From Corallococcus sp. EGB (GTDB lineage Bacteria; Myxococcota; Myxococcia; Myxococcales; Myxococcaceae), in NCBI RefSeq assembly GCF_019968905.1, contig NZ_CP079946.1:7475356-7539355 (forward strand): DNA of 64,000 nt, given 5' to 3'. A program made the position numbers and the translations under genes. Below the pieces are notes generated by a model. It ran no database searches, was not told where the DNA came from, and saw nothing but the letters and a program-made list of their open reading frames with translations. Below, piece after piece: positions 17,227-44,332 of this stretch. Positions within the stretch are counted from its first letter, which is position 1. Every line of letters starts with the position of its first letter.

Positions 17227-17276
17227 CGTACCTCCCGCTTCCCCACGGCGGCGGTTTGACCTAAATCGGAGCCCCC

Positions 17277-17690: not shown

Positions 17691-17733
17691 GCCCTGGCAT
17701 GCCCGGGCCCCGCGCATCAGGTAACGTACAACC

Positions 17734-24138: not shown

Positions 24139-24186
24139 GCTGGGGTGCGGGGGACCCGAGGCGGGTCACTCCAGGCTGGGGGAGCC

Positions 24187-26058: not shown

Positions 26059-27282
26059 ATGTCCTTGTCCCCTCCCCTGCGCATGTCCTTGTCCTGCCTC
26101 CTGCTCCTCGCGGCCGCTTGCGGCAATGCCGGCCCGGGAACGAGCACGGCCGTGGCGGAGTCTCCCTCCGCGTCCGCTCCGGGGACCTCTGTCCAGACGC
26201 CTGCTTCGCCCGCGCCCGTGGAGGACGTGAGCCAGACCCCCACGACCGGGACGCCGGTCGTCACCACGCCCGCTCCCTCGACGAGCGTGTGCTCACCGCT
26301 CAGCTCGCTGACCAGCCTGGCGGGCAACCTGACGACGTGGCTGCAGACGGCCCCCATCACCGCGGCCAACAGCGGCGGCTTCAAGGAGCCGGGCGGCACG
26401 GAGCTCGCCGCGTTCGAGGGCGCCTTCCGCGCGCTGCTCACCGAAGGCCCGACGGCGCAGGGGGTGCAGGACCTGGCGAAGCTGGGCTACGGCGTTTCCA
26501 CCTTCCGCAACGACACGGGCGGCGGCTGGCTGGTGGTGCGCGAGCTGGGGCTGCTGTCTCGCGGCGGCGGCACCTTCATCGTCAACCTGTTCCCCGCGCG
26601 CGACCTGTGGCTGGAGGCGCCGCACGCGGACTCTGATGAGGGCACGCTGCGTCAGACGGCCTCGCAGCTGGTGACGCTGGGCGCTCGCGCGCTGCTCATC
26701 ACCGGCAGCAACCGCTGCGCCGTCACCACCGCCAGCCCGTGCAGCGGCACCACCAGCGTGTGCGGCACGAAGGGCCTGCGCATCTCCGACGCCGCGCACT
26801 ACGGCAACAACTTCTTCACCGCCGCGCACCGCGCGCTGCGCGCCACCTACCCGGACGCCATCGCCGCCAGCATCCACGGCATGGACGCGGGCGATGGCCC
26901 CGAGGCCGCCGTGGTGAGCGACGGCACCAGCGTGCTGCGCCCGGACGCGCTCTCCAACCGCCTGCGTGATGCGCTCAACGCCCACCTGACGGGCACCCGG
27001 AAGGCCTTCTCCTGCAACTCGGCGGAGGACGAGGGCAAGCACCGCACGCTGTGCGGCACCAGCAACGTGCAGGGCCGCATCGACAACGGCGCCGCGGACG
27101 CGTGCTACGCGGAGGCCACCACCGCGTCGGGCCGCTTCGTCCACCTGGAGCAGTCCTCCACGCTGCGCGGCACCGGCGCGTCGTCCAGGGCCGTCATGCA
27201 GGCGCTCGCGGACACCGTGCCCTGCACGCTCGGGGGCACCGGCCTGGGCTGCCCCGCGGTGGTCGCGCAGGACTGTCCGTAA
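26059..27282 (+). CDS. Lipoprotein with putative FGase/PGA-hydrolase-like fold
   Basis: 407 residues; GGAG/GAGG site before the ATG. Signal peptide ends LLLLAAAC (probable lipobox), followed by a Ser/Thr/Pro-rich linker to about residue 75. The enzymatic-looking part contains EAPHADSDEGT (~185), LLITGSNR, AHYGNNFFTAAH, SIHGM (~270), VVSDGT, CGTSNVQGR and FVHLEQSS (~360). The order PH-D-GT, HG, VHLE resembles N-formylglutamate amidohydrolase and phage poly-gamma-glutamate hydrolase metallopeptidases, but I cannot confirm the family. The same pattern recurs in the protein encoded at 33355-34518. It ends 266 bases before the CapC-like gene and may belong to that system. Confidence 0.6.
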   Translation: MSLSPPLRMSLSCLLLLAAACGNAGPGTSTAVAESPSASAPGTSVQTPASPAPVEDVSQTPTTGTPVVTTPAPSTSVCSPLSSLTSLAGNLTTWLQTAPITAANSGGFKEPGGTELAAFEGAFRALLTEGPTAQGVQDLAKLGYGVSTFRNDTGGGWLVVRELGLLSRGGGTFIVNLFPARDLWLEAPHADSDEGTLRQTASQLVTLGARALLITGSNRCAVTTASPCSGTTSVCGTKGLRISDAAHYGNNFFTAAHRALRATYPDAIAASIHGMDAGDGPEAAVVSDGTSVLRPDALSNRLRDALNAHLTGTRKAFSCNSAEDEGKHRTLCGTSNVQGRIDNGAADACYAEATTASGRFVHLEQSSTLRGTGASSRAVMQALADTVPCTLGGTGLGCPAVVAQDCP

Positions 27283-27548: not shown

Positions 27549-30500
27549 ATGGCGCTCTTTTCGACCCTGACACTCTTCCCGGCCTACTCCCTGGACACCT
27601 CCATCCTGGTGGCGGTGCTCGTGGGTGTACTCATCCTGGCACTCCTGACGGAGACGCTCGGGTGGGTCTTCGTGGGTCTCGTCGTCCCCGGCTACCTGGC
27701 CTCGGTGTTCGTCATCCACCCGGAGGCGGGTTGCACCGTCGTCGCCGAGTCGCTGCTCACGTACGGCGTGGCGCTGGCGTTCTCCAGCGGACTCTCCCGC
27801 ACGGGAGCGTGGAGCGAGTTCTTCGGCCGCGACCGCTTCTTCGCCGTGGTGCTCGCCAGCGTCGTGGTGCGCGCCGTCAGCGAGACGTGGCTCCTGCCCG
27901 TGCTGGGGCACTGGATGGACGAGCGCTGGGGCACGTCCTTCATCGTGGACCGCAGCCTGCACAGCATCGGCCTGGTGCTGGTGCCGCTCACCGCGAACGC
28001 CTTCTGGAAGCTGAAGCTGCGGCGCGGCCTGTGGCAGGTCGCCGTGCCGGTGGCGCTCACGTACGTCATCCTGCGCTTCGTGCTGCTGCCCGGCACCAAC
28101 CTGTCCTTCTCCAGCCTGGAGCTGATGTACGAGGACGTGGCGCAGGACTTCCTGTCCAGCCCCAAGGCCTACATCATCCTGCTGACGACGGCGTTCCTCG
28201 CCGCGCGCTTCAACCTCAAGTACGGCTGGGACTTCAACGGCATCCTCGTGCCCGCGCTGCTGGCGCTCACGTGGCTGGAGCCCTTGAAGCTCGTGGCCAC
28301 GATGGCGGAGGTGCTGCTGCTGGTGCTGGCCGCGAAGGCCGTGCTGTCCGTGCCGGGGCTGCGCACGCTCAACCTGGAGGGCCCTCGCAAGACGGTGCTC
28401 GTCTTCTGTCTGGGCTTCCTCGTGAAGTGGTGCGTCGGGTGGGCCATGGGCGGCCGCATCCCGGGCCTGAAGGTCACGGACCTGTTCGGCTTCGGGTACC
28501 TGGTGCCCACGCTGCTGGCGGTGAAGATGCTGCAGAAGCAGGTGATTGCCCGCGTGCTCCTGCCCACGCTGCACACGTCGCTGGCGGGCTTCCTCATTGG
28601 AAGCCTCGCGGGCTTCGGGCTGTCGCTCATCGAGCCGCGTCCGGCCACCGCGCTCACCGCGGAGGCGCCGCGCGAGCACGTGCCCGGGCTGGGCCTGGAC
28701 CAGTCTCCGCTGGGCCTGATGGTGCTGGGCCGCGCCACCGCGCGTGAGAGCGACGTGGGCGGGCAGTCGCTGCGGCTGAAGCACGGCGACCTGCGCGAGT
28801 ACAGCGCGCTGTGGAACGGGCTGGACGCGTGGCTGGAGTCCGGCCGCGCGGAGAATCCGCACGCGCTGCGCACGCAGGCGGTGGCGCTGGGGCTGGAGCT
28901 CCGCGAGTTGCCGAAGCAGGACGGTGCGCCCGCGCGCTACGCGCTGGTGGAGCGCGTGGAGGGTGACGGCAAGGCGGGCTGGGACACGTCGCTGCTCGTG
29001 CCGGGCGCGAGGGGCCCCATCCTGGAGGTGCCGCGCCCCCTGACGGAGGCGCCGAGCGCCGAGGCCGCCGCCCTCCTGTGCGAGCGCGTGGATTGCCGCG
29101 CCATCATCGTGAGCGGCGTGGACTCCCACCGCGCGGGCCTGGTGCTGGGCGACGCGCTGGCGCAGTCGGAGACGCCGCTGCGCCACGCGCACGACGCGCT
29201 GTCCTCGCGCGAGCGGGTGCAGCTGCGCATGGATCCTTCGCTGAAGCCGGGCCAGGTGGTGCTGCACACGCCGGAGGGCAAGGCGCCGCGAGGCCTGGAC
29301 ACGCTGTGGCCGGGCGCCGAGGTGACGTCGAATCCGCCGCCGGAGCCCGGGGGCAACTGGGGCGAGTCCCGGGTGAGCGTGCTGCGCGCGGGCCCCTTCG
29401 ACCTGGCCTCGCTGGTGGTGGAGCGCGCCCCGGCGCTGGCCGGGTCGATGACGGAGCGCGACGCGCTGGGCACGCTGATGGTGACGCCGGAGGGCGCGCG
29501 CGTGCCGGCGGTGCGGCCGTCGGACGCGGAGCTCCTGGTGCTGGAGCGGCACGTGGCCTCGCCGCTGTTGGGCGGCGGTCCGGCGGACGTGCCGCGCGAG
29601 CTGCGCGTGCGCTGGGCCCACGCCATGGCCTCGTTGATGGGCCTGCGGGTGCGGCCGGTGACGGGGTGCGAGGGCGCGCCCGGGTGCTGGTGGGTGACGG
29701 ACGCGGAGGCGACGCCGGGCCGGCTGGGCGCGGGGCTGCTGGTGCGTCAGGGCGGCTCTCCGCTGGCGCTGGAGGTGCCGTCTCCGGCGCGCGAGGCGGG
29801 CACGCTGCCGGTGGCCGCGGAGCTGTGGCACGAGTCCCGCTCCACCGCGCTGGTGTTCGCCACCGCGTCCGGCGACATGCCCCACCCCGCCACCTTCGGC
29901 GAGCTGCGCACGAGCTTCCAGGCGTTCCATCAGGCGGTGCACCGCGCGCTGCCGAAGGAGCAGGGCTGGGTGCTGCACCTGCGCGGCTTCTCCAGCCGGC
30001 CCTCCGTGGACGCGGACGTGCTGGTGGACGTGGGCAACCCGGTGCTGACCCCGGCGCAGCGGCCGGCGGACCTGGAGCGGCTGTTGTCGCAAGGCGGCCC
30101 GCTGGGCTGGCTGGGGCAGCGCGTGCGCTACCATGACGGCTCTGCGGAGCTGACGGGCCTCAACGACGCGAGCCCGCAGCAGGTCTTCTCCCGCACCTTC
30201 GGCGGGGCGCGGCTGGCCACGCTGTGGCTGTCCGAGCCGCTGCGCGGAGCCTTCGTGGGCCCGCGGCTCGCGGTGGAGGAGCTGGCGCTCACGGGCCTCC
30301 TGCCCGAGGAGCCGCGCGAGTCTCCCGAGCGCGCGCTGCTGGCGGACCGGCTGGTGGCGCCGACGCAGCCGGTGTCATCCGCGCTGAAGGAGCACTTCGC
30401 GGAGCTGACCACCAGCGCGGAGCGCTACGTGGCGCAGCAGAACGTGCATGACCTGCGCGCGCTGGCGCAGACGAAGCGCGTGGGCAACGTGACGCGCCAG

Positions 30501-30734
30501 GTGAAGGCCGGCTTCAGCGCCGAATACGGCCTGCCCTTCCTCCTGGTGGAGGCACGGCAGGGCAAGCAGGTGCTGCGCGCCGTCTATTTCCTTCAGCAGC
30601 AGCCTTCGCCGGCGAAGCGCGCGGAGCTGACCGCGGGTGACGCGGAGCTCGCGAGCACGGTGGACCTGGCGCTGCGGCACCGCCGGCCGGTGGTGTTGAC
30701 CGGGGAAGTCTCCCGCGAAGAGGCCCGTCGATGA
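27549..30734 (+). CDS. PgsC/CapC-like double-domain membrane protein with long tail
   Basis: 1061 residues; PgsC/CapC is normally about 150. The first CapC-like unit (about 15-190) has LTETLGWVFVGLVVPGYLAS, then FGRDRFFAVVLASVV, then SIGLVLVPLTANAFW, matching the order of B. subtilis PgsC motifs. The second unit (about 215-365) repeats it: WDFNGILVPALLALTW, GPRKTVLVFCLGFL, FGFGYLVPTLLAVKML. The remaining ~690 residues are soluble and contain two degenerate copies of the putative hydrolase pattern seen in neighbouring genes (VPRPLTEAPSAEAA near 490 and VPSPAREAGTLPVAAELWH near 740), with the metal-type His replaced. The known PgsC role is partner of the ligase PgsB in poly-gamma-glutamate synthesis. 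The stop overlaps the next start (ATGA). Confidence 0.82.
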   Translation: MALFSTLTLFPAYSLDTSILVAVLVGVLILALLTETLGWVFVGLVVPGYLASVFVIHPEAGCTVVAESLLTYGVALAFSSGLSRTGAWSEFFGRDRFFAVVLASVVVRAVSETWLLPVLGHWMDERWGTSFIVDRSLHSIGLVLVPLTANAFWKLKLRRGLWQVAVPVALTYVILRFVLLPGTNLSFSSLELMYEDVAQDFLSSPKAYIILLTTAFLAARFNLKYGWDFNGILVPALLALTWLEPLKLVATMAEVLLLVLAAKAVLSVPGLRTLNLEGPRKTVLVFCLGFLVKWCVGWAMGGRIPGLKVTDLFGFGYLVPTLLAVKMLQKQVIARVLLPTLHTSLAGFLIGSLAGFGLSLIEPRPATALTAEAPREHVPGLGLDQSPLGLMVLGRATARESDVGGQSLRLKHGDLREYSALWNGLDAWLESGRAENPHALRTQAVALGLELRELPKQDGAPARYALVERVEGDGKAGWDTSLLVPGARGPILEVPRPLTEAPSAEAAALLCERVDCRAIIVSGVDSHRAGLVLGDALAQSETPLRHAHDALSSRERVQLRMDPSLKPGQVVLHTPEGKAPRGLDTLWPGAEVTSNPPPEPGGNWGESRVSVLRAGPFDLASLVVERAPALAGSMTERDALGTLMVTPEGARVPAVRPSDAELLVLERHVASPLLGGGPADVPRELRVRWAHAMASLMGLRVRPVTGCEGAPGCWWVTDAEATPGRLGAGLLVRQGGSPLALEVPSPAREAGTLPVAAELWHESRSTALVFATASGDMPHPATFGELRTSFQAFHQAVHRALPKEQGWVLHLRGFSSRPSVDADVLVDVGNPVLTPAQRPADLERLLSQGGPLGWLGQRVRYHDGSAELTGLNDASPQQVFSRTFGGARLATLWLSEPLRGAFVGPRLAVEELALTGLLPEEPRESPERALLADRLVAPTQPVSSALKEHFAELTTSAERYVAQQNVHDLRALAQTKRVGNVTRQVKAGFSAEYGLPFLLVEARQGKQVLRAVYFLQQQPSPAKRAELTAGDAELASTVDLALRHRRPVVLTGEVSREEARR

Positions 30735-33358
30735 AGACCCGCAGCCGCGCCCTCGTGGCGCTCCTTGGCCTGATGGTGGGCCTGGCCCTCATCTGGGCCG
30801 CGAGCCTCGCCGTGCTGGGCAACACCGACACGCCCACCGCGCGGCGCGACGCGAAGTACATCAACGCCGAGCGCCTCATCTTCTACCGCCTGGAGCCGGG
30901 CCGGGAGATGCGCGTGCGCATCCCCGAGGACGCCGAGGAGCTGCTCATCGTCACGCACGAGCTGCTCCCGGACGGCACGCCCTACGCGCCGGAGAAGCAG
31001 TACCAGTACGGCCTCAAGGCGGTCCTGCGCGGGCCCCAGGGCATCCTGCTGGAGCGCGCCATCTTCACGCGCACGCGCCAGAGCAAGGGCCAGCCGCAGG
31101 AGGACGGGACGTTCCTGCAGGAGAGCGCCTTCACCACGCACGCGGATCAACAGGTGACGGACGAGCGCGAGTTCGTGCTGCGCCTGCCCGCGGAGCGTCC
31201 GGAGTACTCCGTGCTGTACCTCCAGCCCGCGAGCACGAGCGACACGCTGCTCGCGCGGGTGTACGTCCGCGCGCACCGCACGCTGCCGCTGCTCGCGTCG
31301 CAGAAGCTGGCGCAGGCCCGCGCGGAGGTGCGCGCCGGGCGTGCCACCTTCGAGCCGTTCGAGAAGCTCTCCTCCGACACGCGCCGCTGGCTCGCGGAGG
31401 AGCACTGGGAGCGCCTCAACGCGGAGGGCGAGGCGGGCACCGACTACCAGATTGAGCCCGTCTACCGCACCGCGTACCGGCTGCCGCTGGTGGAGGCCAC
31501 CGAGTCCGTGCAGGAGCGCCTGGGCTCCGGCCGCGCCGTGGCGCTCAACGTCACCGGCCCCGCGAAGCCGGTGCTGTGGCTGTGGAGCGACGCGATGGAC
31601 GCGCATCCCCAGCCGCACGGCCCGGTGACGGTGCAGACGCTGTCCTCGGACGGCACGGCGCACACGCTGGAGCTGCCGGGCCCCGTGGCGGGCTCGCCCA
31701 TGTCGCATCCGCTGGAGCTGCCGGAGGGCGTGCACACGGTGATGGTGCGCAACGACGGCCAGGAGGACCTGCGCTACACGGTGGAGGGCCCGTACGAGTC
31801 GTGGCTGCTGCCCGCCGAGTCGCGCCCGCAGCCGGGCGCCGCGTCCGAGGGCCACGTGGCCTTCCTGCCGGACACGCGCCGCACGGAGGCGTTCGCCACC
31901 GGCCCCGCGTGCGAGGCGCTGGAGGTGGACATCGATCCGCGCATGGACGCGGTGGGACGGCTGGTGCGCATCGACGCGCGCACGCTGGACCGCGCGCCGT
32001 CGCACGAGCCGCTGCACCTGGGCCTCACGGTGCTGGATGGCCAGGGCCAGTCCCTGGGACAGGCTTCACTGGACGCGACGCCGGAGCCCGCGCCGTTCGA
32101 GAGCGCGGCCCTGCCCCCGCAGCCCGGAGGCGCGCTGCCGTGCACGCCGCTGGCGACGGCGGCCCAGGACGCGGGCTCGGGCGAGGTGACGGATTTGCCG
32201 GCCTGGGTGTCGGGTGCGGCGAGCGCCCGGGTGTTCCTGCCCATGGGGGCGCGCAAGCTGCGCGTGGAGGCGCCGCGCGCGACCCTCCTGCAGTTCTACA
32301 GCTTCCTGTCGAACGGCCAGTCCGTCACGGCGGCGGCGCCGTACACGAACGACGCGCTCACCGGCGTGCGCTGGCGCAACGCGCCCGTGGAGCAGCGCAC
32401 GTGGTACCCGCTGCGCCCGTCGAACCTGGACGCGCTGATGAAGGGCGGCGCCCGTGTGGAGCTGCTCAGCCAGGTGCGCCTGGAGCCCGTCACCCCGGAG
32501 GAGGAGACGCCTCCGCCGTCGGGCGACGCGGTGGTGGTGCGGCCCTACGGCGCTCCCGCGGTGGTGGAGGTGCTCGAGTCCGCGCAGCCGGACACGGTGG
32601 ACCTGGTGAAGGCGCTGTCCACGATGCTGGAGCCGGGCCGCGCGGTGCGTGCGCGCTTCGACTCGCGCACGCCCACCCGTCCGGAGGTGCGCCTGTCGCT
32701 GAAGGACGCGGCGGCGCTGGGCAACGAGGTGGAGGTGCTGCTCGACGGAGCGCCGCTGCACCGCTTCACCGTGCGGTCCACGCGGACGCGGGAGCTGTTG
32801 CCGCCGCTGCCACCGGGTGAGCACGAGGTGCTGCTGCGCTCTTCCGCGCCGGGGCTGACGGCGCTGCTCAACCGGCCTCCGGCGGCGGGCAACGGCCTGC
32901 GCTCGCGCACGGTGTATCCGGTGAGCCAGGGCGGCCTGCGCGTGCCGGTGCGCAAGACGGGCCCGGGCGCCGTCACGCTCAACGTGGTGGTCTACACCCC
33001 GGAGGCGGGGGGCACGACGGTGCCCCAGCTGGCCGTGACGGTGGATGGTGGCAACCCCGTGCGCCGCGCCAGCGTGCTGGTGCCGCACGTCACGCGCGCC
33101 GAGCGCACGGTGGCGCTCCCCGCCTCCGAGCGCGAGCCGGCGACGCCGGTGGGCCGCCCGGGCGTGAAGTGGTACGCGCGCGCGGTGCCGGTGACGCTGG
33201 GAGAGGACATCGCGCCGGGCGTGCACACCGTGCGCATCCAGGCGCTGGGCTCCGGGCCCATGTGGGCGCGCTTCTTCGTCTTCGGCCAGGCCGTGGAGGA
33301 CACCGCGCCGCGCATGTGGAACCGGGGAGGCTGGCAGCCCGACGAGGACCGGTTGTGA
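30731..33358 (+). CDS. Membrane-anchored beta-rich periplasmic protein
   Basis: 875 residues with one N-terminal membrane anchor (about 7-28, ALVALLGLMVGLALIWAA) and a large extracytoplasmic part. No family is recognised. The pattern is beta-sandwich-like with repeated PG-turn strand motifs (LELPEGVHTVMVRNDG, LPPGEHEVLLRSS, IAPGVHTVRIQALG), like carbohydrate- or polymer-binding modules. The start overlaps the stop of the CapC-like gene and the stop overlaps the next GTG, so it is locked into the operon. A plausible job is a periplasmic adaptor holding the polymer or bridging the inner-membrane synthase and the barrel protein (inference). Confidence 0.7.
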   Translation: MKTRSRALVALLGLMVGLALIWAASLAVLGNTDTPTARRDAKYINAERLIFYRLEPGREMRVRIPEDAEELLIVTHELLPDGTPYAPEKQYQYGLKAVLRGPQGILLERAIFTRTRQSKGQPQEDGTFLQESAFTTHADQQVTDEREFVLRLPAERPEYSVLYLQPASTSDTLLARVYVRAHRTLPLLASQKLAQARAEVRAGRATFEPFEKLSSDTRRWLAEEHWERLNAEGEAGTDYQIEPVYRTAYRLPLVEATESVQERLGSGRAVALNVTGPAKPVLWLWSDAMDAHPQPHGPVTVQTLSSDGTAHTLELPGPVAGSPMSHPLELPEGVHTVMVRNDGQEDLRYTVEGPYESWLLPAESRPQPGAASEGHVAFLPDTRRTEAFATGPACEALEVDIDPRMDAVGRLVRIDARTLDRAPSHEPLHLGLTVLDGQGQSLGQASLDATPEPAPFESAALPPQPGGALPCTPLATAAQDAGSGEVTDLPAWVSGAASARVFLPMGARKLRVEAPRATLLQFYSFLSNGQSVTAAAPYTNDALTGVRWRNAPVEQRTWYPLRPSNLDALMKGGARVELLSQVRLEPVTPEEETPPPSGDAVVVRPYGAPAVVEVLESAQPDTVDLVKALSTMLEPGRAVRARFDSRTPTRPEVRLSLKDAAALGNEVEVLLDGAPLHRFTVRSTRTRELLPPLPPGEHEVLLRSSAPGLTALLNRPPAAGNGLRSRTVYPVSQGGLRVPVRKTGPGAVTLNVVVYTPEAGGTTVPQLAVTVDGGNPVRRASVLVPHVTRAERTVALPASEREPATPVGRPGVKWYARAVPVTLGEDIAPGVHTVRIQALGSGPMWARFFVFGQAVEDTAPRMWNRGGWQPDEDRL

Positions 33359-34518
33359 GGTCCCTCGGGAGGACCGGGTCGTGGCGCCCGCTGGTGGCAG
33401 CGGGAGTGCTGTCCGTGCTGGGCGCGGGCGTGAGCGCCCGCGCGCAGGCCGCCCCGACCGCTGAAACGGCCACGAGCGCAGAGACAGCATCGAGCGCTGC
33501 GGCGATTTCGAGCGCCGCGACGGTCGCGAAGCCCTCGAAGCAGGACGAGCGTCGCTCCGGCAAACGCGCGAAGGCGACGCCGCGCTCGGCTCCGGAGCGC
33601 GTGCCCCAGGAGGACCCCACCGTGAACGTTCCCGAGCAGTCGGGGTGCCGCGTGGACGCGCGCTTCTCCGGGCTGTGGCCCCGCGTGGACGCCGTGACGT
33701 TCCACCCCACCACGCTGGAGGAGCGGGCCGCGTTCACGAAGCTCGTGCCCGCGCTGCTGGCCGCCGCGCCGAAGCAGAAGGACGTGCCGCCGGAGCTGAC
33801 GAACGTGGCCGCGGCCGTGGGCTTCTTCCTGGAGACGTGGACCACGCCGCGCGACACCTTCTGGGTGCTGCGGGAGCGGCCGGACCGCTACCACGGCGCG
33901 GGCGCGTATGTGATCCGCACGGGCGCCGCCACGGACGACGTGGTGCAGGTGCCCCACCCCTACTTCGACATCGGTACGGAGGACATCGGCTCCGCCATCT
34001 TCACCTGCCCACCGGAGGGCCGCGCGCCGCGCCTGTTCATGACCGCCACCGCGCACCGCTACAAGGCCGCGCCTGATGAGACGCAGGAGACTCCGGAGCA
34101 CCCGGCGGACGTCGCGCACAACCCGGAGCACCTCTTCCAGACCGTGACGGACCTGGCCGCGCGCCAGCTCCCGCACATCCGCGTGGTGCAGCTGCACGGC
34201 TTCGGCGAGACCAAGGTCCAGAAGGGCCGCACGGAGACGCTGGCGGCGGTGGTCAGCGACGGCACACGCAAGCCCGGCACGTGGGCGCGCAAGGTGGCCG
34301 CACCGCTGGAGGAGGCGCTCGGCCCTGGAGTGAAGCTGTTCCCGACCGGGGCGCAGGTGCTCGGAGGGACGCAGAACGCGCAGGCCCGTCTGCTCCAGGC
34401 GTACCCGCAAGCCCGCTTCCTGCACCTGGAAATGTCATCCCGTACGCGCAAAGCGCTGGCGAGCCCGGCGCAACTCGCCCTGCTGGCCCAGATTCTGTTC
34501 GCACCCTTGGAGGACTGA
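33355..34518 (+). CDS. Secreted putative polymer hydrolase (FGase/PGA-hydrolase-like)
   Basis: 387 residues from GTG 33355, overlapping the upstream stop (GTGA). Signal peptide ends SARAQA, followed by an Ala/Ser-rich linker to about residue 80. The catalytic-looking part has QVPHPYFDIGTED (~196), FMTATAHRY, DVAHNPEHLFQ, QLHGFGET (~280), VVSDGT, LGGTQNAQ and FLHLEMSSR (~355). This parallels, block by block, the lipoprotein at 26059-27282. The His/Asp/His/Glu order suits a metal-dependent amidohydrolase. In a polyglutamate-type system it could trim or release chains, as PgdS, CapD or PghP do elsewhere; substrate is inferred from context only. Confidence 0.65.
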   Translation: MRSLGRTGSWRPLVAAGVLSVLGAGVSARAQAAPTAETATSAETASSAAAISSAATVAKPSKQDERRSGKRAKATPRSAPERVPQEDPTVNVPEQSGCRVDARFSGLWPRVDAVTFHPTTLEERAAFTKLVPALLAAAPKQKDVPPELTNVAAAVGFFLETWTTPRDTFWVLRERPDRYHGAGAYVIRTGAATDDVVQVPHPYFDIGTEDIGSAIFTCPPEGRAPRLFMTATAHRYKAAPDETQETPEHPADVAHNPEHLFQTVTDLAARQLPHIRVVQLHGFGETKVQKGRTETLAAVVSDGTRKPGTWARKVAAPLEEALGPGVKLFPTGAQVLGGTQNAQARLLQAYPQARFLHLEMSSRTRKALASPAQLALLAQILFAPLED

Positions 34519-34524
34519 GCGCCG

Positions 34525-37500
34525 ATGTTTCCTGTTCGACGCCGCGCCCGTTACACCCTGCTCGTGGGAGCGCTCGCGGCGCTGCCCGTCATCGCGCAGC
34601 CCGCCGTTTCGCAGCCGTCCGTCATCGCCCGCAGCGAGGAGGGCATGACCTGGCAGCCGCGGGCCATCCGCGGTCCGGTGGCGCTGGCGGAGCTCCAGGG
34701 CCACGCGCCCTATGTGCCCGGCGGCGTGCCGCAGGCGACGGGGGCCATGGAGGTCACGCCCCAGAAGGGCGCGGCCGTGTGGCTGGGCCCGCTGGACGTG
34801 GTGCGCGTCACCGGCCCCGCCGGAGCGCTGCGCTTCACCCGCGTGCCGCTGTCGGAGGGCGACGAAGCACCCGAGCTGCGCGTCGAGGAGGAAGGCGTGC
34901 CCGAGCGCCCAGGCCGCTGGTACCTGGCCGAGCCCATGGGCGCCGGCAGCATCTGGTGGGTCACGGCGACGAAGAACGCCCGCATCCTGGTGGAGCGCCC
35001 CACGCACACGTCCACGGCGCGCACCGAGGAGCGGATGCGCGACGCGATCCTCCAGTGGGTGGACGGCAAGGGCCCGCGCCCGGCGCTGGCGTTCGACGCG
35101 GCCACGCGCGCGCGGCTGGACGTGGACGCGGCGCTGGAAGCGGAGCTCGTGAAGGACGAGCCCGAGTCCTCGCCCTTCCGGACCGCGGTGCGCAACTGGC
35201 GCAAGGCCTCCGCGCTGCGCGAGTGGGCGCTGGTCTCTCCGCTCTACGGACAGGCGGTGCGCGTGGAGCGCCCGCGTCCCGCCGGCACGGAGGTGGTGCT
35301 GGAGGGAATGGATTCGCCCTGGTTCCGCCCGGAGGTGAAGGGTTCGGTCTGGGCCTTGGAGCTGGAAGGTCCGGGCGTGCTGTCGCTGGAGGCGCGCGCC
35401 GTGCTGGGCAATGGCGCGCCGGCGGAGATGCCGACGCTGGAGGTGTACGGCGTGGGCGGGGTGCTCGCGCAGGCGCAGCTCACGCCGCAGCCCGCGTGGG
35501 CGGAGGCGCCCGAGGGCGCGGCGCTGCCGGACGCGCGCACGGCGCGGGTGCTCGCGTCGGGCGAGCGCGTAGGCATCGCGGAGGAGCTGCGCGTGGCGCT
35601 GCCTCCGGGCAAGCACAACTACCGCGTGAGCTGGAAGGGAGCCGCGCCGCTCGTGCGCGCGCGTGTCGCGTCCCGCCGCCCGACCCTGTCCGAGGCGCTG
35701 TCGCACCAGACGCACTGGACGGAGCTGGCGGAGACGGCGTGGGAGGTGGTGAAGCAGGACCCCGCCGCCCGTCCTTCGCTGCTGCGTCAGCGGCTGGTGA
35801 TGCTGATGCCGGACCTGGCACGCGGCACGTACGGCCGCATCAAGACGGAGGGCCTGTCGCCGCTGCTGACGGCGATGGCGGCGCTCGGTGACAAGGACAC
35901 GGACGTGGCGGTGCATGCGCTGAAGGGCGCGGACGCATCGCCGCTCGCGTGGCACCTGCGGCTGCTCACCGCGAAGCAGTTGTTGGACGCGAACAAGCCG
36001 GACGTCGCGCACGCGCTGCTGGGTACCGCGCCCGCGCTGCCGGACGCGGGCTTCCTCACCGCCGAGGCGTCGGAGCTGGTGGCCCGGCTGCCGCTGGGGG
36101 ACCCGCTGCGCAGCCGCGAGCTGGCCGCGCTGGAGCTGGCGTGGCGCGCGGAGCCACTGTCAGAAGACATCCGGCGCAGCTACCGCGCCGCGTGGTGGCG
36201 TGCGAGCCGCTGGTCGCAGGTGACGCCCGCGCCCCGTGATGACGGGACCGAGGTGAAGGCCTCGCAGTGGCTGGACCTCCAGGGCATGGAGGCCGACGCG
36301 TCGATGGCGGCCAGCGCGCTGTGGCCGCTCGCCGCGGGAGGCACCACGCGCGTGCAGGCCACGGGGCTCGCGGAGGCCCCCACCCTGCTGCGCGCCTACG
36401 TGATGACGCCGCCGGGCGCGAAGGTGAACCCGGTGCTGCGCGTGGGGAACAGCACGTTCCCGCTGCTGCCGCTGTCGGCGGTGGAGCCGGTGGAGATTGC
36501 GCTGCCTCCGGGCGAGCACGCCCTGAAGCTGGAGGGCGCGGAGGGCACGCGCGCGTTCCTGTCGCTCGCGCCCGCGCGGATGGATGGGACGCCGGGCGAA
36601 GTGGGCTACGTGCGCTCGCAGTGGCCGGTGAAGGTGGAGAAGAAGGCGGTGCGCTTCCGGGTGCCGGACGCGAAGCTGCCCTCGCCGGTGCGCGTGCAGC
36701 TGCGTCCGTTGAACGCCACCGCGGGCAAGCCGCTCGTGGTGCGCATGAACACCGACGTGGGCCATCCGCGCCGGCTGGTGCTGATGCCGGGCGCCGCCAG
36801 CTCGCGCCACGTCGCACTGGAAGGTGCGAAGGGCATCTCGTCCGCGCCGGTGTCCGCGGTGGTGACGCTGCCCGCGCAGGCCCGCGAGGTGTGGTTCGAG
36901 CCCGAGGACCCGAAGGCCCAGGTCGCCGTCTCGCTGGCGGTGCGCCGTGCGGAGGTGGCCACGCCCGAGACGTCCCCCGACGCACGACAGCCCCAGCAGG
37001 CAGGCACCGCCTACGAGACGCTCCAGGCGCTCTCCCGCACGCTGCGCGCGGAGCCCGGTGAAGTCGAGCCGCGCCTCACGCGCGCGGAGCTGCTGTCATC
37101 GTTGCAAGAGGACGGCTTCGCCCGCGCGGACGTGGGCCGGCTGCTGGACACGCAGGCGAAGCTGACGCCGGAGCAACAGCGGCGCCTGCTCGCGCTGATG
37201 GACCGCCTGGCGCAGGTGTCCCCGCGCACGGTGCGCTTCGCGCAGGCCATCACGCAGCCCACGCTCGTGGCTCCCGCGTTCCCGGCGCTGAACGTGGACG
37301 GGGCAACTGCCGCCAACGGCGCCTCCGCGCGCAGTGGCGCCACGCAGGGTATCGGCGCGACCCGCGACTGGCCGCAAGACAACAGCACGGCCACGCAAGG
37401 CGACGCGGCGGATGCCCGCTCCGCGGAGCTTGGAGCCACGTCCCTCGCCTCGCTCAGCGCCCTGGTGCGCGACGGCCATGGAGACGCGGCGCTCGCGGCG

Positions 37501-39654
37501 GTGTCGGGCGACAAGAGCCTCGCGGGCCGCTACCTGCGCACCCGGCTGCTGTCCGCCTCCGGTGAGGACGCGGCGGGAGCGCTGGCCATGGCCGCGCTGT
37601 ATCGAGAGACGGGCCTGCCGCAGGTCGGCCTGGAGGCGCTCGGCATGCTGGCGCGCCTCCAGGACTCGCCACAGGCGTGGAAGGACGGCGGTGCGCCCCT
37701 GGGCGCGGCGCTCGCGAGCCAGCTCCAGACGTGGGCGGACCACCCGGACGTGCGCCGCATGCGCTTCGCCGCGGGCCGCTGGACGCGCTGGGAAGGACTG
37801 CGCGACGCGGAAGAGGCCGCGGGCTCGCTCGTCGCCACCTCCGAGGCAGCAGCGGACGACGAGGACGTCGCCATGGCTGTCCGCAAGGCGCTGCTCGCGC
37901 CGCCGTGGAAGCTGTCCGAGGCGAAGCTGCTGCCCGCCGGTGCCTCGCGAGTCATGAGCCTGGTGGTGAAGCAGCCCCGGCCCCTGGGCGCGGAGGTCCT
38001 CTGCGGCACCACGCCGCGTCCGGGCGTGGACGCCGCCGGCACCTGCGCCTTCGCGCTCCGCGTGGATGGCCGCGTGGTGCGCGAGCTCCAGGTCGCCGAA
38101 GGCGAGACCGCCATCCTGGGCACGCGCCTGGACGTCCCCGGGCGCCACCAGGTGGAGGTCGTGATGGCGCGCGCCGACACGCAGCAGACCGGCCTGGTGC
38201 GCTTCGTGGACTCCGAGGACGCCAGCGCCACCGCGCGCGTCGTGGCCGCCCCGCAGCCCCTCTCCCTCCTGCGCAGCCGTCCGGGCGCGCCGGTGGTGAT
38301 GACCGTGCTGGGCCCCACCGCGCTTCGCGTGCGCGCCACCGCCCTGGCCCCCACCGCGGGCCGCGAATTGCTCGTGCGCAGCACGCCGCTGCCCTTGGGT
38401 GAGGGCACGGGCGGCTCCAGCGCGGAGGAAGGCCCGCTCATGCACCTGGGGCTGCCCGAGGACGCCGACCCCAGCCTCCAGGGCGCGCCCCAGCCGCTGG
38501 GGCGCATGGGTGAGACGTGGCTGCTCCTGCCCTCGCGCGGTCCGCACCGCGTGAGCCTGGAGTCCCCCAAGGGTGAAGCCCTGGTGCAGGTGCAACTGGG
38601 TGTCGCCTCGGATCCGAGCGCGCTCGCGGCCCCGACGTGGGCCCAGGGCACCACGGGCCTGGAGCCGCTGCCCTGGCCCGCGCTGCCTCCGGGCCTGGCG
38701 CTCCTGCCGGAGGGCATGCCGCCCGAGGCGCGCACCGGCGGCCTGGGCATGGTGTCCGCGGAGCTGGGCTACCGCAGCGAGGACGTGCAGGAGGGCGAGC
38801 TGCTCAACCGCCCGCTCCAGACAGGCCTGGAGGTCCGCCTGTCCCTGCGCCGCGAGCTGTCCCCGGGCCGCGCGTGGCTGCGCTTCACGCCCGAGGCGCG
38901 CTACCCGCTGAACCAGACCGCCGTGCTGGGCGGCACCGTCGCGGCGTACGTGAACCAGCTCCCCGGCGACCTGCGCCTGTCCATGCAGGGCTCCGTGTTC
39001 TCGCAGACCATCGACGGCGCGATGCGCTGGAGCGCGCGAGGCCACGTGGGGGCGGACCGCTACGTGCGCCTGTCCCCGGACGTGGGCCTCATCCCCGGCC
39101 TGGGCCTGACGCTGGAGTCCATGCAGGGCGGCCACGCGGTGGAGGCCAGCCGCTACGACCAGAACGTCTACTGGCTCTACGGCAAGGACCACCCGAGGCG
39201 CCTGTCGCCCCGGCTGTCCCTGCGCTGGCAGCCCTTCCAGGACCACGTGGCCACGCTGGGCATGTCCGCGACGAGCAACGCCAACATCTACACCGTGGAC
39301 AACGCGGGCGCGTACGCGAGCTGGGCGGCGCTCCTGGGCGGAAGACTCCAGGGCACGCGCGTGGAGCTGGGCTACGGCGCGTCGCAGCGCTTCCAGGATG
39401 AGCACCGCGCCACGGCCTACCTGCGCCACCGCGTGTCGGGCCGGCTGGATTGGAACCTGTGGATGGGCAAGGGCGGCAACCGCCTCATGCTCTTCGCCGA
39501 GGACCGCGCGTTCCTCTCCGGCCCGTACGGGATGCAGAACGTGTTTTCACTCGGAGCGCGGTGGGATTGGACGGGTGGACGTGGGTTGCAGGACGTCACG
39601 CCCACCGAGGAGGAATTCGAGGAGCTGCTGGATGAACGACGTTTGCAGCCCTGA
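34525..39654 (+). CDS. Giant outer-membrane beta-barrel protein, candidate polymer exporter
   Basis: 1709 residues with signal peptide (LLVGALAALPVIAQPA). A very long periplasmic part (about 30-1400) mixes beta-sandwich strands (VVLEGMDSPWF, LPPGKHNYRVSW) with helical repeat stretches (about 390-560 and 850-1080; ALSHQTHWTELAETAWEVV, LLRDGHGDAALAAV-type). The last ~300 residues (from about 1405) alternate hydrophobic and polar residues in short strands (TGLEVRLSLRREL, WLRFTPEARYPL, TRVELGYGASQRF) and end near FSLGARWDW, like the closing strands of an outer-membrane barrel. No family recognised. It begins six bases after the hydrolase-like gene. The size and layout recall BcsC/PgaA exporters (helical repeats plus barrel), so it may export the polymer (inference). 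Confidence 0.7.
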   Translation: MFPVRRRARYTLLVGALAALPVIAQPAVSQPSVIARSEEGMTWQPRAIRGPVALAELQGHAPYVPGGVPQATGAMEVTPQKGAAVWLGPLDVVRVTGPAGALRFTRVPLSEGDEAPELRVEEEGVPERPGRWYLAEPMGAGSIWWVTATKNARILVERPTHTSTARTEERMRDAILQWVDGKGPRPALAFDAATRARLDVDAALEAELVKDEPESSPFRTAVRNWRKASALREWALVSPLYGQAVRVERPRPAGTEVVLEGMDSPWFRPEVKGSVWALELEGPGVLSLEARAVLGNGAPAEMPTLEVYGVGGVLAQAQLTPQPAWAEAPEGAALPDARTARVLASGERVGIAEELRVALPPGKHNYRVSWKGAAPLVRARVASRRPTLSEALSHQTHWTELAETAWEVVKQDPAARPSLLRQRLVMLMPDLARGTYGRIKTEGLSPLLTAMAALGDKDTDVAVHALKGADASPLAWHLRLLTAKQLLDANKPDVAHALLGTAPALPDAGFLTAEASELVARLPLGDPLRSRELAALELAWRAEPLSEDIRRSYRAAWWRASRWSQVTPAPRDDGTEVKASQWLDLQGMEADASMAASALWPLAAGGTTRVQATGLAEAPTLLRAYVMTPPGAKVNPVLRVGNSTFPLLPLSAVEPVEIALPPGEHALKLEGAEGTRAFLSLAPARMDGTPGEVGYVRSQWPVKVEKKAVRFRVPDAKLPSPVRVQLRPLNATAGKPLVVRMNTDVGHPRRLVLMPGAASSRHVALEGAKGISSAPVSAVVTLPAQAREVWFEPEDPKAQVAVSLAVRRAEVATPETSPDARQPQQAGTAYETLQALSRTLRAEPGEVEPRLTRAELLSSLQEDGFARADVGRLLDTQAKLTPEQQRRLLALMDRLAQVSPRTVRFAQAITQPTLVAPAFPALNVDGATAANGASARSGATQGIGATRDWPQDNSTATQGDAADARSAELGATSLASLSALVRDGHGDAALAAVSGDKSLAGRYLRTRLLSASGEDAAGALAMAALYRETGLPQVGLEALGMLARLQDSPQAWKDGGAPLGAALASQLQTWADHPDVRRMRFAAGRWTRWEGLRDAEEAAGSLVATSEAAADDEDVAMAVRKALLAPPWKLSEAKLLPAGASRVMSLVVKQPRPLGAEVLCGTTPRPGVDAAGTCAFALRVDGRVVRELQVAEGETAILGTRLDVPGRHQVEVVMARADTQQTGLVRFVDSEDASATARVVAAPQPLSLLRSRPGAPVVMTVLGPTALRVRATALAPTAGRELLVRSTPLPLGEGTGGSSAEEGPLMHLGLPEDADPSLQGAPQPLGRMGETWLLLPSRGPHRVSLESPKGEALVQVQLGVASDPSALAAPTWAQGTTGLEPLPWPALPPGLALLPEGMPPEARTGGLGMVSAELGYRSEDVQEGELLNRPLQTGLEVRLSLRRELSPGRAWLRFTPEARYPLNQTAVLGGTVAAYVNQLPGDLRLSMQGSVFSQTIDGAMRWSARGHVGADRYVRLSPDVGLIPGLGLTLESMQGGHAVEASRYDQNVYWLYGKDHPRRLSPRLSLRWQPFQDHVATLGMSATSNANIYTVDNAGAYASWAALLGGRLQGTRVELGYGASQRFQDEHRATAYLRHRVSGRLDWNLWMGKGGNRLMLFAEDRAFLSGPYGMQNVFSLGARWDWTGGRGLQDVTPTEEEFEELLDERRLQP

Positions 39655-39706: not shown

Positions 39707-42700
39707 ATGAATAGCTCTGGCCGCGACATGCACCTGGCGAACGAATCTCTCGAGGCCCAACTGCTGGAAGCCCTGCCCCCGCTGCACCGCCGCGTGCGCG
39801 GGGCCTCGGTCGAAGCCCTGGCCCGGCGGCTGTTGGAGTCGTGCCCTCGCCCCGCGGGACTGGAAGGACTGGCGCCGTGGCTGGGCGTGGCCCTGGAGGC
39901 GCTGGAGGCGGAGCTGGCGGCCATCCACGCGGAGATCGTCCAGTTCACGCGCCAGCACAACGACGCGCACGATGACGCCGCGCGCCGCCAGGTGCTGGTG
40001 GATCATCTCAAGGCCACGGTGAAGGACCGCAAGGACCGCAAGGAGGACCTGCGCGCCCTGGACCGGTGGATGGGCTTCGACGCCCTGCGCGAGCGCCAGG
40101 AGAAGCGCCGCCACAAGCTGCTGATCGAAGAAGAGACCGCGCTCCGAGCGCTGGCGGGGGTGCTCGCGAAGGCCTCCGCACGGGAGCTCCAGCCCGCCGC
40201 CGTGCCGCTGGCGAGGCAGCTGCTGGACCGCGCCGTGGACGCGCCCCGGGCACAGAACCGCTTCGCCGCGCTGGAGGCGTTCCGGCAGCTCGCGCAGACG
40301 GTGCCGGGCGTCGCCGCGTCGCTGCCCGAGGTGGAGCCCACGCTGACGAGCCTCGCGGGCCAGGAGGACGTGAGCCCGTTCTTCCAGGCGGAGGCCCTGC
40401 GCGCGCTGCTCACGGTGGACGCGCTCACGGGCCTGGCCCTGCTGCGCCAGCGCCTGCGCGCGAAGGCGCCGTCGGAGAAGGACTTCCTCTTCCGCCGCCA
40501 GGTGCTGGACCAGTGCGCGCCGCTCCTGTCGGAAGAGCACCGCATGCCGCTGCTCACCGAGGTCGCGCACCACGACCCGAGCGAGTACGTGCGCATGGGC
40601 CTGTGCGCCCTCATCGCGCAGCGTCCGGACGGACAGCCGCTGCTGCGCCGTCTGGCGGGCCTGGAGTCGATGCCGGCCGTCGCGGGACAGCCGCCGTCGG
40701 AGCCCAGCCCGCGCGTGCGTACCGCCGCCGTGCTGGCCGCGGTGGAGGCGGCGCTCGCCGCGCCGAGGGTGAAGGCCGCGGCGCTCCAGGTGCTGGTGGA
40801 CGTGCTGGGCCGGGACACCTCGCCGCTCGTGTTGCGAGTGGCGTGCGAGCGCGCCGCCGCGCTGGCGGAAGCGCTGGGCGCAGCCGGTCTGGGCCCCGCG
40901 CACGCGGCGCTGCTGGACGCGGTGGAATCACTGACGACGCAGCCGGGCGCCATGGGCCCGGTGGTCGAGGCCGCCGCCGCTGCCGCGCAGGTGCTGCGCC
41001 GGGTGAAGGACCCCGTGCGTCAGGCATGGACCGCGTTCCTCGCGGGCCGCGTCTCCAGGCTCCGCCCGGGCAGCCGTACGCGCATCCCGCTCCAGCCCAC
41101 GCCGGAGAACCTGCCGCCGCTGCCGGAGGGCCCCGCGTGGCTGGGCGCCATCCTCGCGGACCTGTCACAGGACGGGCACGGCCTGTACGCGGAGCGCACG
41201 GACAAGACGCTGACGCTGTGGCACGGCGACCGGCAGGAGCGCCGCCTGTGGCGCATGTGGCACGAGTGGGGCCGCCCCGCGCCGAACAAGCGCCAGGCGT
41301 TCCTGCACACCACCGGCCGCGTGATGTCCGGCACCCTGCGCGCGCACCCGGGCCACCTGGACGAAATCACGGAGACGCTGGTCCCCGGCGAGCGCGTTCA
41401 CGTGGCCAGCCAGGGCAGCTGGGGCCGTCACCTGCCCACGGTGGATGACCTGCTGGACATGCCGCTGTCGAAGGACGGCAAGGTGCATCTGTTCAGCAGC
41501 CACGGGGAGACGGTGCTGGTGCCGCCCGCCTCACGCCTGCGCCGGCTGACGAACCGCCTCAAGGTGTCGAAGGACTACCGGAAGCTCGCGTCGCTGCGGC
41601 TGGACTCGCTGGGCGGCGAGGAGCCCCGCGAGCGCCGCCGCTTCGTGGAGCAGGTGGAGCGCGAGCTGGGCGTCCAGGTGCGCTTCACGCCCTACGGCCA
41701 GAACAAGCAGGTCCCTTCTCCGCTGGCCACGCTCTTCCACGAGCCCGAGGCCGCGCCGAAGCCCACGTCCACGCTGCACTCGCCCGCGGTCGTGGGCCTG
41801 CAGAGCGGATTCCTGGCGCTCCTCACCGAGCGCATCATGGAGAACGAGGGCTACTTCCTGGGGATGGGAGGCAACGGCATCGCGGCGCTGGGCCTCTTCA
41901 CCGCGGCGCTCTTCTCCATCTTCCTGGGCGACACGTACGTGAAGCGCCAGAACGTGCGCAAATCGCGGGAGAAGATTCCGCTGGTCATCGGCGGCTGGGG
42001 CACGCGCGGCAAGTCCGGCACGGAGCGCCTGAAGGCGGCGCTCTTCTCCGGCATGGGCTTCGAGGTGTTCGCGAAGACGACGGGCTCGGAGGCGATGTTC
42101 GTGCACAGCGCCCCGGGCGCCGGGCCGTCCGAGTTCTTCATCTTCCGCCCCTACGACAAGGCCACCATCTGGGAGCAGAAGGACATGGTGGAGCTGGGCG
42201 CGCGCCTGGGCACGGAGGTCTTCCTCTGGGAGTGCATGGCGCTTCAGCCCAACTTCGTGGAGCTGCTCCAGAACGACTGGATGAAGGACGACTTCGCCAC
42301 GTTGACCAACGCCTATCCGGACCACGAAGACATCCAGGGCCCGGCGGGCATCAACGTCGCGTCCGTCATCACCAACTTCATGCCCAGGGGCGGCCGGGTG
42401 GTGACGACGGAGGACCACTTCCTCCCGCTCTTCAAGCAGGCGGCGAAGGAGAAGGACACCACGCTCCTGCACAGCGCCTGGTGGGAGGCGGAGCTCATCC
42501 CCGAGGAGTTCCTCGCGCTGTTCCCCTACCGCGAGCACCCGCGCAACATGGCGCTGGTGGCGACGCTGGCGGAGCAGCTGGGCGTGCCGCGTCCGTACGC
42601 GTTGGCGCTGATGGCCGAGCACGTGCAGCCGGAAATCGGCGTGTTGAAGGTCTTCCCTCCGGCGAGGGTGCGCGGGCGGCAGCTCACCTTCATCAACGGA

Positions 42701-44332
42701 CACTCGGCGAACGAGCGCACGGGCTTCATGAACAACTGGATCCGCACGGGCCTGGGGGACGTGGATCCGGACGCGCATCCGGAGCGCGCGGTCATCACGG
42801 TCATCAACAACCGGTGGGACCGCGTGTCGCGCTCGGAGGTCTTCGCGCGCATCATGGTGGAGGACGCGCCCGCGGACCGGCACGTGCTCATCGGCACGAA
42901 CCTGGAGGGCCTCCAGAAGTACGTGCGCGACGCGCTGGACCGGCACCTCTTGAGCACGGAGGTCGTCGCGGCGGAGGAGGTCTCCAGCCCCGAGGGCCAG
43001 GCCCGCGCGGAGGCACGCCTCGCGAAGGAACTGGCGAAGCTGAAGGTGCCGCGTCCCACGACGGCCACGTTCATGGACCGGCTGGAGCGGTACGCGGCCG
43101 GCGCGGGCCTCCAGGCGACGCCCACGCTGGCGCTGACCGCGGCCGTGGAGAAGGCGCTGAAGGGCGGGGATGACGACGTGGGCGTGGAGAAGCTCCGCCG
43201 CGCGCTGGAACGCGAGGTGGGCCCGCTCATTGATAAAGCGCTGTCGCCGGCGACGCGCATGCCGCCCCAGGCGCCGCCGGAGGTGCTGACGGCCGCGACG
43301 AAGGACGAGGTGCGCGAGCACGCGCTGTACCTGCTGGCGCGCATGGCGGTGCACGCACGGCTGAAGGCGATGCTGCCCCGAGGTGAGGCGGATGCGCAGG
43401 GACGCGTGAAGGCGTTCCACGCGAAGTTCCGCGACGCGTACCGGGCGATGATGCTGGAGCAGCTGGTGCCGGTGTCCGACTCGCAGGCGACGGGCGACCA
43501 GGTGGTGGACGCGTGCGCTCGCGCGGTGGCGCCCGGGATGCAGGTGAGCATCATGGGCGCGCAGAACATCAAGGGCACGGGCCTGGATTGGGTGTACCGC
43601 TGGATGGCGCTGGACCGCGTGACGACGGCGCTGAAGGCGCTGGAGGGCACGTCGGTGGAGGCGCGGCGGCGGGCGCTGGAGTCGCTGGAGACTTTCGACG
43701 ACTCCGGCTTCGTGGACGCGGGCCTGGCGCGCACGGTGCTGCCGGGGCTCGTCAGCAAGGCCGCGTCGGCGGATGAAGCGGACCGGCTGCGCAAGCTGGC
43801 GGAGCGCGCTCGGGCGAGGCACGAGCTGAAGGTCCACGCGCTGACGCACACGGCGGCGGGCGGCGCGACGCAGGTGGTGGTGCGCAAGCTGGAGAAGGTG
43901 TTCGACTACCTGGACAGCGTGACACGCCGCCGGCTGAGCGAGATGTTGCTCGAGGACCTGGAGTCGGGCCGCGTGTCGCACGCGCGGGCGGCGGTGGAGA
44001 CGCGCAAGCTGTACGAGCGCCAGAAGGGCGGCTGGCTCTTCCGCGGCCTCAAGAAGCAGCCGAAGCGGCTCGCGCCGGTGGAGGTGCCGGCGGTGGCGAC
44101 GCCCGAGCCCGCCATGGACCTGGCGCCACAGCCCGCGCCCGCGGAGGTGGTGTTCAAGACGACGGTGGAGCTGTCTGGCACCAGGGTGCCGGTGCACCAC
44201 GTCTCCCTGGACACCAACGCGCTGAAGAAGCTCGAGGGCCCGGTGCTGTCACGCGACGAGCCGCTGAAGAGACAGGGACCGGACGTGCCGGGTCCCGAAG
44301 CCGCGGATGACGCAGGCGAGCCCTTGTCCTGA
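39707..44332 (+). CDS. PgsB/CapB-type amide ligase embedded in a 1541-residue protein
   Basis: 1541 residues; CapB/PgsB is normally about 400-460. Residues 1-~545 are helical and Ala/Leu-rich, resembling HEAT/ARM repeats. A membrane helix lies at about 719-743 (NGIAALGLFTAALFSIFLG). The Mur-ligase-like domain follows: P-loop GGWGTRGKSGT (~762-772), AKTTGSEA, WECMALQPNF, LTNAYPDHEDIQGP and FINGHSANERTGF, all in the PgsB order. The last ~450 residues are helical. In Bacillus PgsB ligates glutamate through gamma-amide bonds using ATP. A start at ATG 39728 is also possible; neither has a strong ribosome site. Substrate here is unproven. Confidence 0.85.
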   Translation: MNSSGRDMHLANESLEAQLLEALPPLHRRVRGASVEALARRLLESCPRPAGLEGLAPWLGVALEALEAELAAIHAEIVQFTRQHNDAHDDAARRQVLVDHLKATVKDRKDRKEDLRALDRWMGFDALRERQEKRRHKLLIEEETALRALAGVLAKASARELQPAAVPLARQLLDRAVDAPRAQNRFAALEAFRQLAQTVPGVAASLPEVEPTLTSLAGQEDVSPFFQAEALRALLTVDALTGLALLRQRLRAKAPSEKDFLFRRQVLDQCAPLLSEEHRMPLLTEVAHHDPSEYVRMGLCALIAQRPDGQPLLRRLAGLESMPAVAGQPPSEPSPRVRTAAVLAAVEAALAAPRVKAAALQVLVDVLGRDTSPLVLRVACERAAALAEALGAAGLGPAHAALLDAVESLTTQPGAMGPVVEAAAAAAQVLRRVKDPVRQAWTAFLAGRVSRLRPGSRTRIPLQPTPENLPPLPEGPAWLGAILADLSQDGHGLYAERTDKTLTLWHGDRQERRLWRMWHEWGRPAPNKRQAFLHTTGRVMSGTLRAHPGHLDEITETLVPGERVHVASQGSWGRHLPTVDDLLDMPLSKDGKVHLFSSHGETVLVPPASRLRRLTNRLKVSKDYRKLASLRLDSLGGEEPRERRRFVEQVERELGVQVRFTPYGQNKQVPSPLATLFHEPEAAPKPTSTLHSPAVVGLQSGFLALLTERIMENEGYFLGMGGNGIAALGLFTAALFSIFLGDTYVKRQNVRKSREKIPLVIGGWGTRGKSGTERLKAALFSGMGFEVFAKTTGSEAMFVHSAPGAGPSEFFIFRPYDKATIWEQKDMVELGARLGTEVFLWECMALQPNFVELLQNDWMKDDFATLTNAYPDHEDIQGPAGINVASVITNFMPRGGRVVTTEDHFLPLFKQAAKEKDTTLLHSAWWEAELIPEEFLALFPYREHPRNMALVATLAEQLGVPRPYALALMAEHVQPEIGVLKVFPPARVRGRQLTFINGHSANERTGFMNNWIRTGLGDVDPDAHPERAVITVINNRWDRVSRSEVFARIMVEDAPADRHVLIGTNLEGLQKYVRDALDRHLLSTEVVAAEEVSSPEGQARAEARLAKELAKLKVPRPTTATFMDRLERYAAGAGLQATPTLALTAAVEKALKGGDDDVGVEKLRRALEREVGPLIDKALSPATRMPPQAPPEVLTAATKDEVREHALYLLARMAVHARLKAMLPRGEADAQGRVKAFHAKFRDAYRAMMLEQLVPVSDSQATGDQVVDACARAVAPGMQVSIMGAQNIKGTGLDWVYRWMALDRVTTALKALEGTSVEARRRALESLETFDDSGFVDAGLARTVLPGLVSKAASADEADRLRKLAERARARHELKVHALTHTAAGGATQVVVRKLEKVFDYLDSVTRRRLSEMLLEDLESGRVSHARAAVETRKLYERQKGGWLFRGLKKQPKRLAPVEVPAVATPEPAMDLAPQPAPAEVVFKTTVELSGTRVPVHHVSLDTNALKKLEGPVLSRDEPLKRQGPDVPGPEAADDAGEPLS

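Follow-up and report, generated by a model that had tools for sequence, protein, structure and literature searches.

What is a CapC protein of 1061 residues doing in a diderm bacterium? The question is raised by one gene, here called capC2-tail, in Corallococcus sp. EGB, and it touches on a wider one, since to our knowledge the mechanism by which gamma-PGA passes across the periplasm and the outer membrane of Gram-negative bacteria has not been worked out. The window, i.e. the whole stretch of 64,000 nucleotides analysed here, covers positions 7475356-7539355 of a complete genome of 9.43 Mb. A preliminary description had proposed that the gene encodes a tandem-duplicated CapC domain, a built-in dimer, fused to a long extracytoplasmic module, and that this would be a new architecture for the family. 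The features discussed below are collected in Table 1.

Table 1. Features of the capC2-tail locus, in positions of the window
Feature	Position	Strand	Remarks
S53-type (pro-kumamolisin) peptidase gene, upstream of capC2	24145-25950		
Lipoprotein, second stand-alone copy of the hydrolase family	26059..27282	+	lipobox-like LAAAC
capC2-tail, 1061 aa, two CapC and two degenerate hydrolase-like domains	27549..30734	+	PF14102 in two stretches; AlphaFold pLDDT 84
CapC repeat 1, residues 12-185, helices a-f	27582..28103	+	motifs VVPGY, FGRDRFF, IGLVLVPLTAN
CapC repeat 2, residues 200-362, helices a'-f'	28146..28634	+	motifs GWDFNGILVPALLA, EGPRK, FGFGYLVPTLLA
Tail domain T1, residues 436-640	28854..29468	+	hydrolase-like fold; R496 and R560 at the zinc His positions
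Tail domain T2, residues 685-905	29601..30263	+	hydrolase-like fold; S745 and R812 at the zinc His positions, L894 at that of the catalytic Glu
C-terminal strand-rich extension, residues 975-1061	30471..30731	+	strands assigned by DSSP in the AlphaFold model
875 aa protein, conserved partner; a single transmembrane helix at the N-terminus, periplasmic body	30731..33358	+	hydropathy
Putative secreted gamma-PGA hydrolase	33355..34518	+	AlphaFold pLDDT 93.4; invariant His/Asp/Arg/Glu set
Exported protein of 1709 aa; large N-terminal region, C-terminal region putatively barrel-like	34525..39654	+	signal-like N-terminus
Long PgsB/CapB, about 1540 aa	39707..44332	+	TIGR04012 217.7 bits
PgsB amide-ligase core inside the long CapB	41906..42955	+	

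Two CapC domains in one chain

The reading frame of capC2-tail starts with ATG, holds zero internal stops and ends on a stop codon that overlaps the start of the next gene as ATGA. The protein belongs to the CapC family, PF14102 matching it twice (E 2.2e-45; summed score 154 bits, gathering cut-off 27) and the two copies scoring 87.9 and 84.0 bits when taken singly in a whole-genome search, and CapC is the only Pfam family found in it. The PgsC equivalog model TIGR04011 also matches twice, at 57.1 bits, which lies below its cut-off of 96.45 and leaves the chain outside that equivalog.

The yardsticks for CapC were the profiles of Pfam and NCBIfam, together with the single CapCs of other Myxococcota. 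Profiles of the halves, built from 74 relatives, align with each other over 159 columns (probability 94%, E 2e-8); as single sequences, the halves give a z of 3.1, and 28 of 2000 composition-preserving shuffles reach their score. This single-sequence signal being modest, the support for the duplication comes from the profiles rather than from one pairwise alignment. The tandem duplication put forward in the preliminary description is thereby borne out, the alignment of the halves and the helix count by which it could have failed having given aligned profiles and six helices on each side. The departure from a normal PgsC is equally real, a two-domain chain of 1061 aa standing against single-domain proteins of typically 155-213 aa, as the single CapCs of other Myxococcota are.

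PDB sequence searches with the whole capC2-tail protein and the downstream hydrolase as queries returned nothing relevant, Foldseek gave no significant match to the whole CapC model and none to its transmembrane part, for which the structure search yielded no solved relative, and a viral structure library gave only a weak match to N-formylglutamate amidohydrolase. Besides, no solved structure of PgsC was found.

Membrane topology

In the AlphaFold model of capC2-tail (pLDDT 84, pTM 0.66), each CapC half comprises six helices in identical order, so that both halves would lie in the same orientation, which makes the proposed built-in dimer plausible. Along the CapC part, loops rich in Lys and Arg alternate with acidic ones, and this charge pattern fits a predicted topology with the N-terminus out, 6+6 helices and the C-terminal tail outside. 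The long soluble tail is real and, by the same charge argument, probably periplasmic.

The tail consists of two degenerate hydrolase-like domains

The tail, of about 690 residues, is itself a tandem duplication, a feature that escaped the preliminary description: its domains T1 and T2 match each other in profile-profile comparison at 99.7% (E 2.9e-25). Both are homologous to the hydrolase encoded further downstream in the same operon (hhalign against its family: T1 98.9%, E 1.7e-17; T2 99.5%, E 9.8e-23), CapC as a control giving no match. In the other direction, the profile of the downstream hydrolase matches the CapC tails in 49 loci, with E down to 1e-28, and in the 27 best loci it does so in two stretches, one or two of them weak. 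In addition, T2 as modelled in the CapC protein finds 2odf (Z 10.2), 2q7s (Z 9.6) and 3a9l (Z 8.0) as structural matches. Instead of the new module that had been supposed, the tail is thus a pair of degenerate gamma-PGA-hydrolase-like domains.

The zinc-binding His pair and the catalytic Glu that mark an active enzyme are missing from T1 and T2. Among the relatives, at least 69 of 74 tail rows have another residue at the first His position, and the second is Arg in 55/74 T1 rows and 49/74 T2 rows, both positions being mostly occupied by Arg or Ala; the position of the catalytic Glu holds another residue, and a His persists at one of the two His positions in 3-5 of the 74 tails. An Arg at position 899 is kept in 66/74. 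In view of this loss of zinc ligands and catalytic Glu, T1 and T2 are most likely inactive pseudo-hydrolases, and the arginines at the former metal positions suggest that the tail may bind an anionic polymer. In alignments A1 and A2, divergence is much faster in the tail than in the CapC part.

By comparison, the stand-alone hydrolase of the operon is apparently an intact copy of the fold of the tail domains. Its gene starts with a GTG that overlaps the stop of the gene for the 875 aa protein as GTGA, and the model of the protein finds 2odf (Z 14.4), 2q7s (Z 13.2), 3a9l, which is PghP (Z 12.3), 21dc (Z 11.4) and 5onj (Z 11.3). All 59 homologues share H116, D120, R150, D167, H196 and S216; conservation is almost as strict at N256, H272, E274 and R280. 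In PghL, zinc is held by His41, Glu46 and His102, Glu165 is catalytic and Arg171 contacts the substrate (PMC6506827); H116, D120, H196, E274 and R280 of the hydrolase appear to parallel these five residues in order, with the same Glu-to-Arg spacing of six. The family nevertheless remains under the cut-off of the Pfam gamma-PGA hydrolase model PF05908 (Gamma_PGA_hydro), which matches 4 of the 59 members (best E 0.011) and not the protein of the window. The lipoprotein encoded before capC2-tail has close homologues, seen only in part of the Myxococcota, for which the hydrolase profile gives E values of 1e-29 to 1e-34.

A conserved five-gene operon with a long PgsB

In the window, capC2-tail is followed by the genes for the 875 aa protein, the hydrolase, the 1709 aa exported protein and a long PgsB. 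This order is kept in all six relatives, from three phyla, whose loci were traced as far as PgsB, a protein of about 1400 residues there, the fourth gene being split in one of them. Homologues of the 875 aa protein occur in 70 of 80 loci, and counterparts of the 1709 aa protein are alike in position and size. Pfam and NCBIfam assign no family to these two proteins or to their relatives. In the 1709 aa protein and its relatives, the C-terminal sequence reads like an outer-membrane beta-barrel, judging from its alternating strands, but in a count of strand amphipathicity the difference between this region and controls was not clear-cut. A common short segment resembling G-RG-x-D-x-x-P lies just past the last predicted strand in the relatives of this protein.

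The long PgsB is laid out as a helical-repeat-like N-terminal part of about 690 aa, a membrane segment, a Mur-ligase-like core and a C-terminal part. Its score against the PgsB model TIGR04012 falls below the cut-off (217.7 against 222.7 bits); it shares with classical PgsB the motifs GTRGKS, KTTG, ECMALQP, TNAYPDHED and EHPRN (TN.YPDHED and EHP.N) as well as related ones, so that its catalytic motifs are intact as far as the sequence tells. A search for CapA/PgsA (PF09587) gave no match within the window and six places elsewhere in the genome.

Several neighbouring genes deserve mention. Corallococcus, Sorangium, Polyangium, Plesiocystis and Enhygromyxa all carry an S53-type peptidase gene immediately before the tandem capC, and this recurrent position makes the peptidase a possible functional partner in Myxococcota. 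The long pgsB is followed by a PF13480 GNAT-type acyltransferase-like gene and a hexapeptide-repeat gene (window 44368-45980). In two gammaproteobacterial loci, a PF02518 histidine-kinase-type ATPase gene directly precedes capC2 (16931-17974, minus strand, in L162; 9-581, plus strand, in L163), an adjacency which suggests regulation of capC2 by a sensor there. Further away in the window, at 53433-59438 on the minus strand, lies an open reading frame of about 2000 codons whose third-position GC of 0.67 is atypical for the genome and whose start is like that of a secreted protein.

Distribution and phylogeny

A pattern scan of about 85,000 species genomes, one genome per species, recovered 113 relatives in several phyla, so that the architecture is no one-off; 80 of them, some being metagenome bins, were kept. 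A single chain of more than 800 residues with the tail is found in 73 of these 80 loci. The taxa include Myxococcota, Planctomycetota, Campylobacterota, Proteobacteria and others, with examples in Pseudidiomarina, Zhongshania and Methylococcaceae (Gammaproteobacteria) and in Massilia, Erythrobacter and Sulfurovum. In two metagenome contigs, the tandem CapC and the tail lie in separate overlapping reading frames (L066 7887-10435, where the tail is weakly recognisable, and L132 9944-13244), which reflects a genuine split of the gene or else a frameshift in the assembly.

PgsB is present in 28/28 tandem genomes, mostly as a reading frame of 1360-1930 codons, and in 26 of them it lies on the contig of capC2, 24 times at a distance of 7-16 kb (once on the opposite strand) and twice at 35-40 kb. 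Three tandem genomes (G213, G214 and G218; loci L152-L154) also possess a classical PgsB adjoining a single CapC. Among 369 gammaproteobacterial genomes, CapC was detected in 11, as tandem chains of about 1080 codons in six and as single domains in five; among 195 Myxococcota genomes, it was detected in 42.

In a CapC tree with 65 sequences each for the first and the second halves and 18 for the single domains, these three sets form exact groups (support 0.98, 1.00 and 0.97, respectively). Since first and second halves fall into separate clades, the CapC duplication is, to judge from this tree, a single event that took place long ago. In the tree of the hydrolase fold, T1, the stand-alone hydrolases and the lipoproteins each form a clade, and T2 nearly does (six misplaced).

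Literature searches dealt with CapC/PgsC of myxobacteria and of Gram-negatives, with its duplication and with the Pfam name, and in the open-licence PMC text thus covered no description of the tandem CapC with tail or of the five-gene operon was found. The domains were already known; their combination and the operon may be new.

Proposed mechanism and its alternatives

Taken together, these data make it fairly probable, in our opinion, that capC2-tail is the inner-membrane subunit of a diderm PgsB/PgsC-type machine for gamma-PGA synthesis and export, with the route and the tail clamp described here. Joined in one chain, the two CapC domains would make up the membrane-bound partner of the long PgsB, which is cytoplasmic and Mur-ligase-like, and by homology CapC2 and the long PgsB would act as their counterparts do in B. 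subtilis (cited in PMC10090944). The polymer would reach the periplasm by way of the CapC pair, either through it or along it. There T1 and T2, former gamma-PGA hydrolases with arginines in the lost zinc site, might hold on to the polyanion and steer it while leaving it uncut; charge and homology are what lead us to guess at this clamp role. Next, the anchored 875 aa protein and the exported 1709 aa protein, the latter through its supposed barrel, would take the polymer to the outer membrane and through it, while trimming or release would fall to the intact secreted hydrolase. We infer the periplasmic steps of guidance, transfer and trimming, as well as gamma-PGA as the polymer, from homology, predicted location and operon context. 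Several points weigh against this scheme, namely the pTM of 0.66, the search for solved relatives of the transmembrane part that found none, the barrel reading drawn from sequence only, the PF05908 score under its cut-off, the window without PF09587 and the fact that the closest folds of the hydrolase include amidohydrolases acting on other substrates.

The last of these points bears on the identity of the product: in place of plain gamma-PGA, the same machine could make another amide-linked polymer or a polyglutamate that is modified. Such a product would agree with the scores of the long PgsB and of the tandem CapC (57 bits) below the NCBI equivalog cut-offs, with the rank of N-formylglutamate amidohydrolase and unassigned enzymes above PghP among the folds of the hydrolase, and with the acyltransferase-like gene after the long pgsB; we hold it to be rather unlikely, given that the PgsB catalytic motifs are kept and that the hydrolase appears to retain the residues matching the gamma-PGA site of PghL. 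A little less doubtful is the idea that the tail is a structural scaffold docking the 875 aa and 1709 aa proteins, with no contact to the polymer, as its faster divergence relative to the CapC part would be expected of a docking surface; the Arg at the second zinc position of both domains and Arg 899, on the other hand, suggest a conserved cleft.

Activity of the tail domains with a rearranged metal site seems very improbable, despite the preserved fold of T2 (Z 8-10) and the His remaining in a few members, because the protein of the window has R, S, R and L where practically all stand-alone homologues have H or E. Finally, a chance resemblance or an artefactual fusion in one assembly, to which the modest single-sequence z might have pointed, is refuted by the relatives, the long tandem chain recurring in most loci along with a conserved operon and clean clades, and we attach next to no probability to it.

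If the preferred reading as a gamma-PGA machine is true, a degrading enzyme has been turned into a carrier of its former substrate. More broadly, we find the case evenly balanced for a widespread and undescribed class of envelope-spanning polyglutamate machines in diderms, in which duplicated, dead gamma-PGA hydrolases, fused to a duplicated CapC, would serve as the periplasmic polymer-handling part. The conserved five-gene set provides named candidates for each step of gamma-PGA passage, and since the fusion sets how many PgsC units there are and how they are oriented, the oligomeric state of PgsC becomes testable. Besides, the genomes with both a tandem system and a classical PgsB/PgsC pair are useful for a comparison inside one cell.

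Comparison with known systems

With the PgsC/CapC of Bacillus (PF14102, TIGR04011), the partner of PgsB, capC2-tail shares the PF14102 match in both of its halves, and in the capC2 operon, as in classical PgsBCA, a PgsB-type ligase with seemingly intact motifs is encoded together with PgsC. The differences lie in the architecture: classical PgsC is a single-domain protein of about 150-200 aa, whereas capC2-tail adds a long periplasmic tail to two CapC domains; PgsA/CapA belongs to the classical cluster and is absent from the window; and the PgsB of the capC2 system, encoded four genes downstream of capC2, is about three times longer than classical PgsB.

The N-formylglutamate amidohydrolase-like proteins 2odf and 2q7s are the top structural matches of both the hydrolase and T2. 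These proteins are stand-alone, and we know of no link between them and polymer export. The gamma-PGA hydrolases PghP and PghL (MEROPS M86, PF05908; 3a9l, 5onj, 21dc) have their fold in common with the downstream hydrolase (Z 11-12) and with T2 (Z 7.5-8); they keep the zinc ligands and the catalytic Glu, which the tail copies have lost. The operon hydrolase itself differs from them in its PF05908 score and in its setting, being encoded with the synthase and not by a phage.
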